Shown piece by piece: positions 53,436 to 59,622 of a DNA stretch of 64,000 bases. Source of the stretch: Lasiodiplodia sp. COLG20 (Eukaryota > Ascomycota > Dothideomycetes > Botryosphaeriales > Botryosphaeriaceae); the NCBI GenBank assembly GCA_009801085.1, contig VNWV01000001.1, positions 5,518,001 through 5,582,000 of the forward strand. The letters are read 5' to 3'. Both the position numbers and the translations under genes were made by a program. The notes under the pieces are model-generated. The model was given only the letters and a program-made list of their open reading frames with translations. It was not told the origin of the DNA and ran no database searches. Position 1 is the first letter of the stretch. The number at the start of each line of letters is the position of its first letter.

Positions 53436-56400
53436 TTACACTCCAAGTGCGTCACCAAGAAGCATGCGTATTTTCTCATCATCATTCGTCTCCTTCTCCC
53501 TTCCCCATGCCACTAGTCCCAGTGCATCTTTCCCATCAGCATCTCGAAGTTTCGGATCCGCTCCCTTGTCAAGCAGAATCTCAACTGCCAGTGGCATACC
53601 AGCAACAACGGCATGGTGAAGTGCAGTGCGGCGCTGCGTCCCTGCAAACTCGTCCAGCTTGATGCCCGGTTGCGCCACGAGCAAATCCAACATCTGTTCA
53701 TCATCCGGTGCCATCTGCGAGGCCGTACCTCTGCCACCGCCCTTCCACATGACGGCAGCAGAGAGAAGAGGAGTCATACCGGAAGCGTTCACAGCGTTGA
53801 CATCGGCGCCTTTGTGGAGAAGCATGGCTACCGCCATGGGGCTGCGGCGCCGCACCGCCAAGTGCAACGGCGTGTCCCGCGTTGCGGGCACCTTGATGTT
53901 GACCTTCGTCCCTCCCTTTTCCTCGGACAGCAGTAATAGTGCCAATGCATCCAACCGGTACTTCTCAAGTCCACGCGACTCGGGCCCCTTGAAGATCTTT
54001 TCGAGGGCGCATTCGCCGTTGCGATCTTTTTTGTTGGGGTCAACGCCGGCGAATACCATGTCGTAGACCATATTGACGTAGCCGTCGTTGTCGTTGTTCT
54101 CTATCGCCATGTGCAACGGAGTTTTATTATAGTGGCGAGGGGAGACGATATGCACATCCACCTGATATTCGAGAAGGGCCCGGACTATTTTGCTATGCTT
54201 GGGACTGGCTCCACGGATTGCGTTCAGAAGCGGCCCTCGCCGCGGCTTAGCTTTCGTACCTGGGTTGCATTTCTGTGAGAGTAGCTGGCGGACGGCACCG
54301 ACAGAACCGCGGGAGCAGAAAACTTCGAGGAGCTTGTTGGTCTCGTCCACCCACCGATTGATGTTCCAACCAGCCAAGGCTTGCCTTGTGCGTGATGTCA
54401 TTTGACTCGTTGCAACACTTTTGGCGTGTTGACCAGCCTTCCGTGCATCCTCCATGAAAAGGGTGGGTGATGGTGCAGACTTGGGAACTCTCTTCGTCCG
54501 TTCCGGTTTCTGAACCGGCTTTTCCGGAACGTTTCTGGACTTCGACGGCTGTGATGTATTCTTTTTCCCCTTCTTTGGCGACTTGCCTTTTGGTTTTGCA
54601 GGAGTCGACGAAGCTTCGGATCCATTGAGCATGAGAGGTTCCATTGGAAGATTGATACTTGCATCTGCATCCGTCCCATTGTTTATCTGGCTCTGCTCTC
54701 CGCTCGGTTCAGACACAGTTTCAGACTCATCTTTCGCATCTTCTACAGTAGCTTGTTTGTCTGTACGCGGACCTTTCACTTGGTTGACTGCTTCATCATC
54801 TTCGTCCATACCTCTTGGAGATTCTTCAATTAGGTTTTCATGCCACCGGACCATCTTCCTGTTTCCATGAGACTGCTTCGATAGCGAACTTTTCTCATTC
54901 TCCTCTTGCTCTGCGGATTGTCCTTCTTCGCGTTCTTGGGAGATTGTGTCTTCTTTCATGTGTCTCTTGTCTAATGTCCCGCGGTCTGTATTAGAAGTTT
55001 GCTGGTTATGGGAGGAGATGACCAGCTGCATGCCCGAGTCGCTTGAGATATCACCCCGCAAGGTCCCATTCAAGGTGTGGTTGGGGATAGACGGAGATAT
55101 GTCTTGATCCTCGTCTCGATACTCTATTTGAAGTGATGGTAGGTATTGAGGTGCAGAAGCTTTGTCGGTGGGCTCTTCATGCTCGAGTTTGTCAGATGGC
55201 CACGTTAGATATAATTTCCGGGGTACTGATACACCAACAGTACGGGAGTTTGTGTGACGTGTTTTAGGATCTTCATGAGGCCTGTCCGAAATGGCATGTG
55301 GCTTTGGCTTCTCTTGATTAGAATTTTGTCGATATAGTACCAGTTGTTTGCCAGTGTCCATGGCTAAAGCCTTGCGATCGACGTCCTCGAGAGGGACCAG
55401 GGTCAATCCATTCAGGTATTCTTCCTCTTCAGAGCTGTCCAGATCTCCGTTCTTCGATTCCCAAAGGTTATTGTCATCAAGTTTCGAGGTAAGCGCACAT
55501 TCAAGGGGTTTGCGGTCTTTTTGCACCAGTGATCGAAATGGAGCTTCGTACAGAGGTGAGTCATTCGTCGGTTGTAAAGAGGCAGTAGCTTCATAACTGC
55601 CACCTTCAGAACCTGAAGAGTCTTCCTCGATCACGAATCCATCAGCAAGCTTTGCTTGTTTCGTCGTCGCCGGATCTTCCTCATCTGAACTGCTATCATC
55701 TTCAACAATGTATCCAAGCGCGATATCTTCGTCGCGGGATTTTCCACGTGTTCGATTATAAGCTGGTTCTCTTGTGGTTCTGCGGCCCTTCTTCGATGGT
55801 TGGGTGGTTGAGTAAGAAGCCGTACTTTCGTCCATACTGTCTGAGAATGATCCCAAAGATGGCCGCCGGTCCACCGGTCTGCTATGGAAACTCTCCCAAG
55901 AAGAACGGGTGATATTCTCCATGTCAACTGTGGCATCGGTCGAGGCCGTAATCCAATTCTCGATTGAATGTGAGTGATTGGCGTCCATCAGAGCTGGAGG
56001 GAGCTGAGGATCAAAGAGAGCAGCAGCACGAGCTGATACTTCAGCAGCAGTGGCATTCCTCATTGTCTCATTGAACCCCTCGGGGTTCAAAGGCGTTTGA
56101 AACTCAAAGGCCCCAGCTTCGAACTCATCCCAACAGTCCAAGCAGCAGAATTGTCGGAAGGACGGAGTCTGCTGAATGTCTACCATCAGGTTTTTTACAG
56201 TTGACCTGTTTTTCGGGTCGTCTTGTAAGAGATTCTTGACCCAAGTGATGGCTTCGTTGGCCGAATCAACGTGTGGGGACATGATCTTCGTCAACCAGTT
56301 CAAGGTTGTTGGGAGGTTTGCCCAGATAGACTGTGAATGGTCTTTGTTGGTCGAATTCCTTGCCATGAAATTTCGGAAAGTGGCGAGATTGCTCCCGAGT

Positions 56401-57530
56401 AGTACTGTGGTCATTTCGAGGTAAACAACCCCCAACGACCACATATCACTCGCTTTGTTCCTTCTGTGACGATGAGCAACTTCTGGCGCAACGTAGTCGA
56501 TGCTGATAGGAATCATGTCATGTGTCGTGCTTCTGCCGGACTGAGAGAAGTCTGTTGCGGTCCCAAAGTCACTAAGGTAGATCTTGTTCTGTTCGGCAAC
56601 AAGAACGTTGCGCGTAGTGATGTCCGTGTGTCTGATGCTTTGGTCATGGAGATAATTGATTGCGCTTGCGAGACAGCCATAGAAAGGCTGGACATGTCTC
56701 CTCCTCCCTTCATTGCGTGCGTCTCCTAAATATTTTAGGAATTCAAGGAGGTTGCACTTAGCAACAGGGCGCATTAGGTAGGCTATGAAGTTGTTGTCCG
56801 TGTACGAGCCGATGTAATTGACCAAATGGCGATGAGAGAGCTTCTTTAAGATTTCAACCTCCTTGATGAAATCATTCTGTCGTCTGAGGTTCATAGCCGA
56901 ATCTCTTCGCCGGGGAATCCGTTTTCGTGCAAATGTGGCAAAGCTGAGCTTGCTGGTGACCTTGTCAACCTGTCTGTATCCACATCAGTCAGCTTCGGGA
57001 CTCAGATATTAGCAGCTTACTTACCCGAATCCGCCTTGTCCTAGCACTTCTTGGACCCAGAAATATGCATCAGCACTTCCTGCAATGAGTTGGTGTTCTC
57101 CCCCTTCGATTACAAGCGAACGCGCTTCGGGACTCAGCACATGATGTTGGAAGTTGAGGAAATTAATCTTCAACTCGGAGTTGATCATAAAGTTGGGCAG
57201 GGTTTGGTTATCGAACGGAAGGTGGAAATCGACGTAGTTGTGGGCCTCAAACTGATCCATGTACACTTCATGGTTACCAGCAGCGATGTTGCGCAATACC
57301 GTATAGATGCGCGGCCTGAATTTCCAGTTCCTTGGAACTCCATCGTGCTGGCTTCGAGCGGCATCGAAATGTAACAGAAGATCCGCGATTCTTTGAAATT
57401 TATCGGGGGTAAAGGGAGGCTGACACAACTTCTCTAACGCGCCTTCAGCCTGGTCCGCGGGAATAGATGCCCAAGCCTGCGGTTTGCTGCCGGATCTTCG
57501 GAAGCGAAAGGGATTCGAGTGGAAACTCAT
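53436..57530 (-). CDS. Protein kinase with C-terminal ankyrin repeats
   Basis: Exons 57025-57530 and 53436-56973 give 1347 aa. An N-terminal region (1-155) of a type common in Pezizomycotina kinases (RPRIYTVLRNIA, DFHLPFDNQTLP) precedes the kinase domain (about 158-445). Its motifs are GQGGFG (164-169), Lys186 in FARKRI, HTDITTRN with Asp286 and Asn291 (HTD replaces HRD), SDFG (Asp304) and APE (331-333), so it is probably active. A long disordered, acidic/Ser/Gln-rich linker (about 450-1030) includes two GYIVEDDSS-like motifs and two QLV-containing Q/N motifs. Ankyrin repeats fill about 1035-1345 (TPLHMAIENND, TPLHLAVRRRSPMAVAMLLHKGADVNA, TALHHAVVAGMPLAVEILLDKGAD). The intron splits the glycine loop and the join restores it. 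It is divergent from the HeLo-protein gene. Substrate unknown. Confidence 0.92.
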
Positions 57531-57882
57531 CGTGAGAACTAACGGAAACGAGTTGAGTCGAGATAGCGACAGCAATGACGACTAGGCAGCACCCCCAAGG
57601 CTGAGGTTTATCGGACGTCGAAGTTTGCTCGTATACTTAGTACAGCTAACTAAGTGCGCCATGAGATCCTACGTGCGACTCGGAATGGCGGGTCACACAG
57701 CCCACCCATGCTGCGGGGGCGCAAACTTCAGCTTCTCAGCCCCCATCAAACCCCGCACCCTTATCACCACAAAATCAGCCTCGTGTGCGCGTGAGCTGAT
57801 CCGCGCTTCAGCCTTGCCCCTACTTAAGTCTGTCTTACACCCGTCTCTACCATTAACGACAATTCCACGGACAGAAGCCGAC
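57531..57882. promoter_or_regulatory. Shared divergent promoter of kinase-ankyrin and HeLo genes
   Basis: 352 bp separate the two ATGs, so the genes must share regulatory DNA. A perfect 6-bp inverted repeat, ACTTAG and CTAAGT separated by 9 bp, lies at 57635-57655 and is a candidate factor-binding site. Near the HeLo start is a CCTACTTAAGTCTG stretch (about 57820). No strong TATA box is visible on either side. Confidence 0.5.
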
Positions 57883-59622
57883 ATGGCCTCAGGCGTTGAA
57901 GGAGCCGCCGCCATTGCTGGCTTCATTAGCCTGGCTTTTGAAGCATTCGAAGGATGTCTCGAGGCATACAGATTCGTTTATACGGCTCAAAGCATGGGCA
58001 GCGATGGCGACTCCGTGCGTTCTAAACTGGTTTGGGAACGGCATCGCCTGTGCGAGTGGGGAGAGCGAACCGGCGTCCGCAACATTGCACAGGAAAAGCT
58101 CAATTGGAATTTAGCCGTCACATTGCTGAATCAGCAAAAAGCACTCATGACTTCTGCGGATGCTCTGGAAGCGAAGTACAAATTACGCATTCCGGAAGAG
58201 ATCATCAGTGCCAGCGACATCGAGAATGAGGCTTCGAGTGAAAGCACGTTGGGGAAGCTGCTACAACGGCTCAAGCCAGAGATCAATCAACCCAGCAGCA
58301 AGTTTATCCACTCCCAAAATGGACCACTCAAAAGGCTCAAGTGGGCCGCCGTTGGGAAGACTCAGGCTCTTCGAATTGTTGGCGAGATAGAAGAGATCAA
58401 CAACCGCTTGCACAGCCTTCTCGATTCGGCAGATCAGCATCGGCTGCAACTCGCCACGGAAGCTCTTCTGAGGGATCTAGTCTCCAGGTCAGCAAATTCA
58501 GCCGAACTCGAATCCGTTAAGCAGCTTCTCTATCCAGGACAATCACTCAACGACCGGCAAATAGCAGCAGCCGCGGAACTTAAGCAGATCATGTCAATCG
58601 TGGGCAGAAAGAACCAGGATCACACGCTCGATGCAGCAACCTTGGTCGAAATGGGTCTGAAGCTCAAACTTCTAAGTACAAAAAGGCTCAAACCACTATC
58701 TCCTGCGTCGCGATTGGAGTGCTATGGTATTGAATTGGGAAGATACCGAGATACAGATGTCCTCACTGAATGGAGATCGGCAGAAGAAGAAACTTGGAAT
58801 CTCATGGAGCCCCAAATGAAAGCCCTTGCCGTTCTCCTTGGGAAAATGGATGGCAGCGCTTTTCCAGTTCTACCATGCATGGGCCTTGTCTCTTGGAAAG
58901 AGCTGGATTGCTTTGGATCGGTTTACAACCTCTCTTCGCTTAAGCTCAATGGCCGCATCGAGCTCAAGTCACTCCACGATATCATCTGTGAGCAGCCACA
59001 GGCATCGCTAAGCCGTCGATTCGACATTGCCATGGCTTTGGCTGAAGCCGTTCTTCAATTCCATACCGCCGGCTGGCTACACAAAGGCATCCGCTCCGAG
59101 AACATAATTTTCATCACGAATAAGGGTGCATCATTGGAGCACTGTCTTGGTACAACAGCTTACCTGATTGGATTTGAGAACGCTCGACCGGACACCGAAG
59201 ATGGCCAAATGTTGACTCGACAGCCGCAGACATCCCTGGAGCACGACCTGTACAGACATCCTTCAGCAAGAGGGGCGGACAGACAATCGTTCCGGAAGGC
59301 ATTTGATCTATATTCGCTGGGGTGTGTCCTTTTAGAGCTTGGCTTATGGGAGAGACTTGTGGATCTGCACTCCAGCACTCCAGATCTCTCTGAACAAATT
59401 CAAAAGGCTGAACGGGACGAGAAGATGCTGCCTCTACCCTCACTTGTCGAGTTCGGATATGACACGGAAGAGATGGCAAAGCTGTCTCACACTGCTGGAC
59501 AGAATTTCACCGATGTAGTCTCTCTATGTCTCACGAACAATGAATCGGACTGTGAGAAAACAGAAGATTCTCTGAAAATTCAGAAATCAATTGTTGAGAT
59601 GCTGGGTAGATGCAGCTGCTAA
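57883..59622 (+). CDS. HeLo-domain protein with degenerate kinase-like domain (MLKL-like layout)
   Basis: Intronless, 579 aa. The first about 215 residues match the fungal HeLo (prion-inhibition and propagation) domain: an apolar start (GAAAIAGFISLAFEAFEGCLEAYRF would form helix 1), then VRSKLVWERHRLCEWGE and ALMTSADALEAKYKL. In HET-S this domain becomes membrane-active and is structurally related to the MLKL four-helix bundle. The C-terminal part (about 285-560) is kinase-like: the catalytic loop reads HKGIRSEN (400-407, Asp missing), the DFG position reads IGFE (429-432), yet DLYSLGCVLLELGLW (475-489) and a YRHP motif (457-460) are kept; no glycine loop is evident. It is therefore a predicted pseudokinase. 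Start at 57883 is the first ATG giving a HeLo N-terminus; the frame is open upstream. Confidence 0.88.
   Translation: MASGVEGAAAIAGFISLAFEAFEGCLEAYRFVYTAQSMGSDGDSVRSKLVWERHRLCEWGERTGVRNIAQEKLNWNLAVTLLNQQKALMTSADALEAKYKLRIPEEIISASDIENEASSESTLGKLLQRLKPEINQPSSKFIHSQNGPLKRLKWAAVGKTQALRIVGEIEEINNRLHSLLDSADQHRLQLATEALLRDLVSRSANSAELESVKQLLYPGQSLNDRQIAAAAELKQIMSIVGRKNQDHTLDAATLVEMGLKLKLLSTKRLKPLSPASRLECYGIELGRYRDTDVLTEWRSAEEETWNLMEPQMKALAVLLGKMDGSAFPVLPCMGLVSWKELDCFGSVYNLSSLKLNGRIELKSLHDIICEQPQASLSRRFDIAMALAEAVLQFHTAGWLHKGIRSENIIFITNKGASLEHCLGTTAYLIGFENARPDTEDGQMLTRQPQTSLEHDLYRHPSARGADRQSFRKAFDLYSLGCVLLELGLWERLVDLHSSTPDLSEQIQKAERDEKMLPLPSLVEFGYDTEEMAKLSHTAGQNFTDVVSLCLTNNESDCEKTEDSLKIQKSIVEMLGRCSC

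Follow-up and report, generated by a model that had tools for sequence, protein, structure and literature searches.

We analyzed a 64,000-nucleotide stretch of the Lasiodiplodia sp. COLG20 genome (contig VNWV01000001.1, positions 5,518,001 to 5,582,000; hereafter, the window), which carries two divergent genes, one encoding an active-type protein kinase fused to ankyrin repeats and the other encoding a HeLo-domain protein whose C-terminal kinase-like domain lacks catalytic residues (i.e., a HeLo-pseudokinase). Relatives of the two proteins are encoded on the same contig in 12 cases from four classes of Pezizomycotina (i.e., Dothideomycetes, Eurotiomycetes, Sordariomycetes, and Lecanoromycetes; one species or genus was looked up per class), and HeLo-pseudokinase genes are repeatedly paired with kinase genes within the Lasiodiplodia genome itself (43.5 Mb; 88 contigs). 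The pair resembles a fungal version of the RIP-kinase/MLKL cell-death switch known from animals, and we lean, with modest confidence, toward the view that it is a conserved two-gene signaling module for kinase-triggered HeLo cell death.

Architecture of the two genes

The kinase-ankyrin gene and the region upstream of both genes comprise the following features (positions in the window; basis in parentheses).

53436..57530, reverse strand: kinase-ankyrin gene, one-intron coding sequence, 1347 aa (splice model; relatives P0121, P0123, and P0124)
57025..57530, reverse strand: exon 1, residues 1-168 and part of 169 (splice model, Pfam, alignment)
56974..57024, reverse strand: intron of 51 nt, GTAAGT...ATACAG, directly after the GxGGFG loop (splice model; relatives align across it)
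56130..57065, reverse strand: protein kinase domain, residues ~156-450 (Pfam, splice model, conservation)
54450..56129, reverse strand: long, fast-evolving linker, residues 451-1010 (identity to nine relatives)
53439..54449, reverse strand: ankyrin-repeat region, residues 1011-1347, with the best Pfam stretches within ~1055-1309 (Pfam, conservation)
57531..57882, no strand: shared upstream region between the divergent start codons, 352 bp (open reading frame [ORF] and splice models)

The kinase-ankyrin gene runs from an ATG at 57530 to a stop at 53436 in the best-looking among several open splice models. Its product begins with a conserved N-terminal region (residues ~1 to 155; no Pfam match), which is followed by the glycine-rich loop, and the kinase domain contains K186, D286, N291, and DFG (D304). 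The open frame in exon 2 matched the Pfam families Pkinase (2e-33) and ankyrin (4.8e-23), while NACHT, NB-ARC, and protease families gave no Pfam match to the protein at E values of up to 1. In an alignment of 69 rows (68 of 120 proteins plus the query), D286, N291, and D304 are invariant in all rows, and K186 is K in all 60 rows that are free of gaps there (9 rows are gapped). The protein is 89% identical to a Lasiodiplodia theobromae protein, and the relative P0121 shows 89% identity over its full length. Across nine other relatives (P0123-P0125, P0129, P0138, P0143, P0146, P0167, and P0169), the identity is 21 to 47% for the linker versus 42 to 79% for the kinase domain. A promoter/terminator scan of the 352-bp upstream region returned nothing, although its models are bacterial and not applicable to a fungus.

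The HeLo-pseudokinase gene comprises the following features.

57883..59622, forward strand: HeLo-pseudokinase gene, intronless, 579 aa (ORF list, starts of relatives, Pfam)
57883..58590, forward strand: HeLo domain, residues 1-236, with a hydrophobic N-terminal helix (Pfam; HET-s structures by profile and fold)
58666..59619, forward strand: residues 262-579, kinase-fold domain (Pfam DUF7580) devoid of catalytic residues (Pfam, structure model, fold search)
59080..59103, forward strand: H400-K-G-I-R-S-E-N407, which replaces HRDxKxxN and has no catalytic Asp (D in 1/105 rows)
59170..59178, forward strand: G430-F-E432, which replaces DFG (G in 105/105 rows; GFE also in MLKL)
59215..59217, forward strand: T445, a Thr/Ser position in a disordered pseudo-activation loop, candidate phosphosite (T or S in 104/105 rows)

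The longest ORF at this locus (653 aa) starts at 57661; this start was rejected in favor of the ATG at 57883 because the five closest relatives (P0001-P0005, of nine read) begin at the MASG methionine. Proteins from Diplodia and Macrophomina are 77 to 80% identical to the product. Its HeLo domain (PF14479; residues 12-195) was matched at 3.6e-26 (92.7 bits versus a curated cut-off of 23.2), and both a profile search and a fold search of the predicted model matched this part to the HET-s/HET-S N-terminal domain. Helices at residues 182-240 sit inside the aligned range of the HET-s HeLo structure, and we therefore do not claim a separate "brace" between the HeLo and kinase-like domains. Across the family (105 rows, i.e., 104 of 120 proteins of at least 540 aa plus the query), the N-terminal HeLo stretch is hydrophobic in 89 of the 92 rows that are long enough to be scored.

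The C-terminal domain was assigned to DUF7580 (8.6e-7), with a Pkinase match at residues 362-555 below the Pfam cut-off. Since it has a kinase fold and lacks both the catalytic and the metal-binding Asp, it is a pseudokinase by definition. The catalytic Asp position holds D once among the 105 family members and G, S, N, A, C, or E elsewhere. Because the catalytic residues are invariant in the kinases and lost in the pseudokinases, the division into an equipped and a dead partner is an old, maintained property. Between the pseudo-DFG and pseudo-APE motifs lies T445, in a loop for which the structure model has a predicted local distance difference test (pLDDT) score under 50 (residues 445-447); it is a natural candidate for a regulatory phosphosite. 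When the family profile was compared with PDB, MLKL was the best match of the kinase-like domain (8.7e-5), with a small margin over IRAK4 (5.5e-4) and other kinases. In the profile alignment, the fungal family and MLKL have in common IRSxN (catalytic loop) and G(F/Y)E (in place of DFG). In PADLOC, which gives no cut-offs, many kinase models matched, with the best being mad6 for the kinase-ankyrin protein (3.6e-37) and PD-T4-6 for the HeLo-pseudokinase (3.6e-7); we take the mad6 and PD-T4-6 matches to reflect shared kinase domains. An NCBIfam search of the pair gave matches solely under curated cut-offs.

These features bear out what an earlier note had seen in the letters of this DNA alone, namely, an active kinase fused to ankyrin repeats, a divergent gene 352 bp away (the start codons flank 57531-57882) that is intronless (no intron is needed for the 579 aa), and, in the product of that gene, an N-terminal HeLo fold and a C-terminal kinase-like domain without the catalytic Asp and DFG (HKG..N for HRD..N and GFE for DFG).

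Pseudokinases often regulate active kinases. The kinase could accordingly be the output of the pair, with the HeLo-pseudokinase serving as a membrane-tethered allosteric regulator or scaffold that does not kill, as the retention of D286, N291, and D304 in every row would also allow. However, the hydrophobic N-terminal stretch is what is expected of a membrane-attacking helix, and some HeLo-pseudokinase loci have no kinase neighbor; we regard this alternative as quite improbable.

Linkage across fungi and recurrence in one genome

The earlier note had proposed looking for the pair outside this strain, and it is conserved there, in the 12 same-contig cases. Of the outcomes that the note had named as refuting its reading (restriction of the pair to this strain, an N-terminus without a HeLo fold, or a C-terminus that is not kinase-like), none was observed. 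Four of them have consecutive locus tags (Teloschistes flavicans Q9202_007347/007348, Xanthomendoza sp. Q9186_002145/002146, Seirophora lacunosa LQ348_006051/006052, and Calogaya cf. arnoldii Q9221_001990/001989), four come from Diplodia corticola, Aspergillus affinis, A. campestris, and Xylaria sp. FL1777, and four more lie on contigs of 8,285 to 21,191 bases. Nine of the 12 contigs are under 150 kb, and five are of 8 to 21 kb; the shared contigs of D. corticola and A. campestris are large, so that these two cases show presence on one contig alone. All 12 cases show a shared contig, irrespective of strand and distance. Pairs were identified by comparing match lists by the exact size of the host contig and by locus tag, using 120 of the 165 HeLo-pseudokinase matches and 110 of the 120 listed kinase matches (232 in total); the 10 kinase matches left out are the last listed and include insect proteins. 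Size-shifted controls (offsets of 1 to 11 bases) gave 0 or 1 match in each of 12 trials, versus 12 real matches. Precomputed Pfam ankyrin matches are present in all 12 partner kinases. The paired genes comprise 12 of the 52 closest HeLo-pseudokinases, none of the 68 lower-ranked ones, and 12 of the 65 top kinase-ankyrin matches. When collections of viral and genome contigs were searched for fungal DNA carrying further pairs, the former contained no confirmed relative and the latter four bacterial kinase loci. A third protein search, which was also aligned, listed 120 proteins, 114 of which were already in the earlier sets.

One large group of HeLo-pseudokinases (P0057-P0097; many of ~611 aa), including a protein of the lichen fungus Alectoria sarmentosa, had no same-contig match among the 110 kinases compared.

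Distances within the two protein sets are strongly correlated (r = 0.96 over 14 pairs, i.e., the 12 linked pairs, the window pair, and one same-species pair from Macrophomina, using columns filled in at least 70% of rows), a value reached by none of 2000 label permutations. Both trees give the same four lineage groups, while the deepest branching and some inner nodes differ. The correlation fits joint vertical inheritance, although by itself it would be no proof of interaction.

Within the Lasiodiplodia genome, 10 loci resemble the window HeLo-pseudokinase. Pkinase matches (140, merged by hand to 113 places) lie within 3 kb of five of these loci, as opposed to none of 17 other DUF7580 loci and none of six HeLo-only loci; none of these 23 controls has a kinase match even within 5 kb. 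Given a chance expectation of 2.1% per locus, the P value is 2.4e-5 with the window pair excluded (4/9) and 5e-4 with the doubtful C88 locus also excluded (3/8; Fisher's test versus the 23 controls, 0.012). Three of the loci are further divergent pairs (on contig C12 near 3.177 Mb, on C45 near 1.90 Mb, and on C52 near 8 kb), in which the kinases retain HxD..N and DFG and the pseudokinase parts are strong matches to the family profile. The HeLo domain is clear at C12 (60.9 bits versus 23.2) and marginal at C45 (23.4 bits). At C52, it has no Pfam match, and its presence is assumed from the 38% identity of the protein to that of C45 over 440 residues. Candidate first exons with a HeLo-like start, picked by eye, are unproven, since the two short peptides scanned, from C45 and C52, did not score with the HeLo profile (E values of 0.43 and 0.05); if these exons are taken at face value, the gene starts in each further pair are ~0.3 to 0.6 kb apart. 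Ankyrin repeats are encoded in the next ORF on the kinase strand at C45 (4e-41) and C52 (1.2e-19), which we take to form one gene with the kinase ORF, without a splice model, while the searched ORF at C12 has no ankyrin match.

On the basis of BLAST scores, each gene of the C45 pair has its closest relative in the C52 pair and vice versa, so that the module was probably duplicated as a unit. The paired kinases were also compared with open frames of seven other kinase loci (L010-L016), which are the best matches of the window kinase. The window kinase is nearer to kinases from loci that lack a HeLo-pseudokinase than to those of C45 and C52, suggesting that kinase partners were gained by HeLo-pseudokinases on more than one occasion.

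A shared two-way promoter could alone keep such genes together, without any direct molecular partnership, since divergent genes 352 bp apart can be coregulated without interacting. This explanation sits poorly with same-contig pairs in four classes and with additional divergent pairs involving other kinases in one genome that has no kinase near the controls, and we give it little credence.

Several further loci in this genome contain related sequences. At C88 (L052, 4550-6856, reverse strand), a kinase ORF (HCDIRPAN, DFG) and a HeLo-pseudokinase-like ORF share a frame with a single in-frame TAG between them, and a weak HeLo match lies between the two ORFs (E = 0.02 when four short sequences were scanned); the locus may be an interrupted fused kinase-HeLo-pseudokinase gene or two genes. 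An ORF with a HET domain (PF06985, 4.1e-5; L055, 6140-8065, forward strand) adjoins the C52 pair. A pseudokinase fragment on contig C45 (L053, 4543-5288, reverse strand) shows 54% identity to the pseudokinases of the C45 and C52 pairs. It lacks a Pkinase match within 5 kb, lies near a CorA-like ORF, and is possibly an orphaned copy. A 998-aa HeLo-pseudokinase-like ORF on contig C12 (L051, 3036-6029, reverse strand) has an extra C-terminal region of ~400 residues and likewise lacks a Pkinase match within 5 kb; given its HKDVNSSN motif, the catalytic Asp position may be kept, and DFG was not seen. The kinase-like domain is widespread in the genome, with 20 DUF7580 matches, of which 17 fall outside the HeLo-pseudokinase set, and it mostly has no coinciding HeLo match.

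A candidate kinase-triggered cell-death switch

We propose that the kinase-ankyrin protein would act as a catalytically competent regulator and the HeLo-pseudokinase as a latent membrane-active executioner. At rest, the kinase-like domain would keep the HeLo domain inactive. A signal, possibly received via the ankyrin repeats, would switch on the kinase, which would then bind and phosphorylate the pseudokinase domain, probably in the T445 loop, and the freed HeLo domain would assemble at the plasma membrane, permeabilize it, and kill the hyphal compartment. The kinase-to-pseudokinase step is modeled by analogy on RIPK3-MLKL. The killing step is proposed because of experiments on HET-S, whose HeLo domain permeabilizes liposomes and is essential for cell death, as described in a review (PMC12881547). 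We infer the interaction, the phosphorylation, T445 as its site, the membrane damage, and the cell death, and the direction of the kinase effect could be either activation or restraint.

Restraint would fit another explanation, in which the pseudokinase is a decoy or guarded target, the kinase has an inhibiting instead of an activating role, and loss of restraint fires the HeLo domain; microbial effectors that attack kinases would hit the pseudokinase, or the partner kinase would restrain it. Linkage and the dead/active split fit this explanation equally well, and catalytic death is expected of a decoy. Decoys, however, usually diversify, while here divergence is moderate and of similar rate in the HeLo part and the pseudokinase part, and invariant motifs are kept across the family. 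We consider a decoy unlikely.

Characterized fungal HeLo executioners are, in the accounts cited here, fired by amyloid templating from NOD-like receptors (NLRs). The HeLo-pseudokinase might likewise be fired by an NLR, as HET-S is by NWD2, with the kinase being incidental; HET-S-type HeLo effectors are encoded beside NLR genes, and NLR control has been proposed or shown for them (PMC3321046, PMC12881547). In HET-S, the amyloid motif follows the HeLo domain, whereas the structure model places a folded kinase-like domain there, and neither protein showed a RHIM-like core in a crude scan with two patterns. Firing by an NLR is very improbable in our judgment.

Several observations weigh against a kinase-triggered module. 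Conservation in the ankyrin region roughly equals that in the kinase domain, which is not the pattern of a diversifying sensor; a sensor role for this region is unproven, and its binding partner may be a conserved one, possibly the pseudokinase, instead of a non-self signal that changes quickly. T445 is kept family-wide, including in members for which no partner kinase was found, and its conservation is thus not evidence for a link to the kinase-ankyrin protein. Among the 110 of 232 kinase matches compared, no same-contig kinase was found for 40 of the 52 closest HeLo-pseudokinases or for any of the 68 lower-ranked ones, which may reflect absent genes, different gene models, different assemblies, or matches below the listing limit. 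In the Lasiodiplodia genome, where 121 of 214 kinase candidates were scored and some partners may thus have been missed, five of the 10 HeLo-pseudokinase-like loci lack a kinase match within 5 kb; a kinase 5.2 kb from the C2 locus lies just beyond this limit. Finally, the match to MLKL depends on the profile; the window sequence alone ranks GCN2 first, with no MLKL among its best 60 matches.

More tentatively, filamentous ascomycetes may possess a necroptosis-like pathway driven by phosphorylation, with dedicated kinases, frequently fused to ankyrin repeats, that fire the HeLo-pseudokinase encoded next to them; the pairing would have originated more than once, with different kinases, and would also have been duplicated as a unit. 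We see this as possible but doubtful. If the executioner were a full-length MLKL homologue, as it may be, its design would predate the split between animals and fungi. Related fungal and mammalian amyloid motifs act at nonequivalent pathway positions, as a review notes (PMC5485727). With a conserved kinase beside the HeLo-pseudokinase, fungi would have the step from kinase to pseudokinase, and whether necroptosis-type control is ancient would become directly testable in laboratory fungi and yeast.

Comparison with known systems

Like RIPK3-MLKL of animals, the pair combines an active kinase with an executioner consisting of an N-terminal helical membrane-attack domain and a C-terminal pseudokinase. 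Unlike RIPK3, the fungal kinase has ankyrin repeats and lacks a RHIM-like core in the crude scan, and its gene adjoins that of the pseudokinase. Its nearest solved kinases are NEK7 and MAP3K5, with no RIP kinase among the best 60 of 2475 PDB matches of the single query sequence. The fungal catalytic loop reads HKG, as opposed to HGK in MLKL, and the N-terminal domain matches HET-s HeLo, with the MLKL bundle not among the listed matches; HeLo and the MLKL four-helix bundle are nonetheless linked in a published account (PMC12881547, section 18). The nearest folds of the pseudokinase model are those of IRAK4 and RAF, and MLKL is absent among the 50 rows shown per fold search for either model. The likeness of the pseudokinase to MLKL is thus suggestive only. 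The earlier note had compared the pair with both RIPK4 and MLKL; the MLKL part stands to the extent of the motifs in common in the profile alignment, while kinship with RIPK4/ANKK1 is not supported. In RIPK4 and ANKK1, as in the fungal protein with its intact catalytic residues, ankyrin repeats follow a kinase domain, but the fungal protein differs in its long linker and its conserved N-terminal region, which matches no Pfam family. Since no RIP kinase is among those best PDB matches, the likeness shown is one of layout only.

Among fungal systems, the effector gene of NWD2/HET-S and PNT1/HELLP, which encodes a HeLo or HeLo-like protein, also adjoins its activator gene (PMC3321046, PMC7885112). 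The activator there is an NLR, whereas the candidate here is a kinase, and a folded pseudokinase is found here where those effectors have a C-terminal amyloid motif. Protease/gasdermin clusters likewise place an enzyme, often with repeat domains, beside a membrane-permeabilizing executioner (PMC12881547), as opposed to a kinase beside a HeLo-pseudokinase. Plant MLKL-like proteins combine a HeLo-related domain with a kinase-like domain (PMC12881547, section 18), while the present protein is fungal and paired with a kinase gene.

The same kind of architecture has been published for Pa_4_8870 and Pa_6_8690 of P. anserina, which are HeLo plus kinase-like proteins (PMC3689799, Table 5; PMC12881547, figure legend), with no partner kinase gene or conserved pairing described for them in that table or legend. 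Bidard et al. reported that two P. anserina HeLo proteins with a "Pkc-like" domain were upregulated 6.55- and 4.31-fold during incompatibility (PMC3689799). The earlier note knew of no such pairing in fungi, and searches of an open-licence library, which covers neither preprints nor most subscription papers, likewise gave no description of a kinase gene paired with a HeLo-pseudokinase gene, while HeLo-kinase-like proteins were already in print. The HeLo-pseudokinase architecture is already known, and what appears to be new is its conserved, recurrent kinase partner gene.

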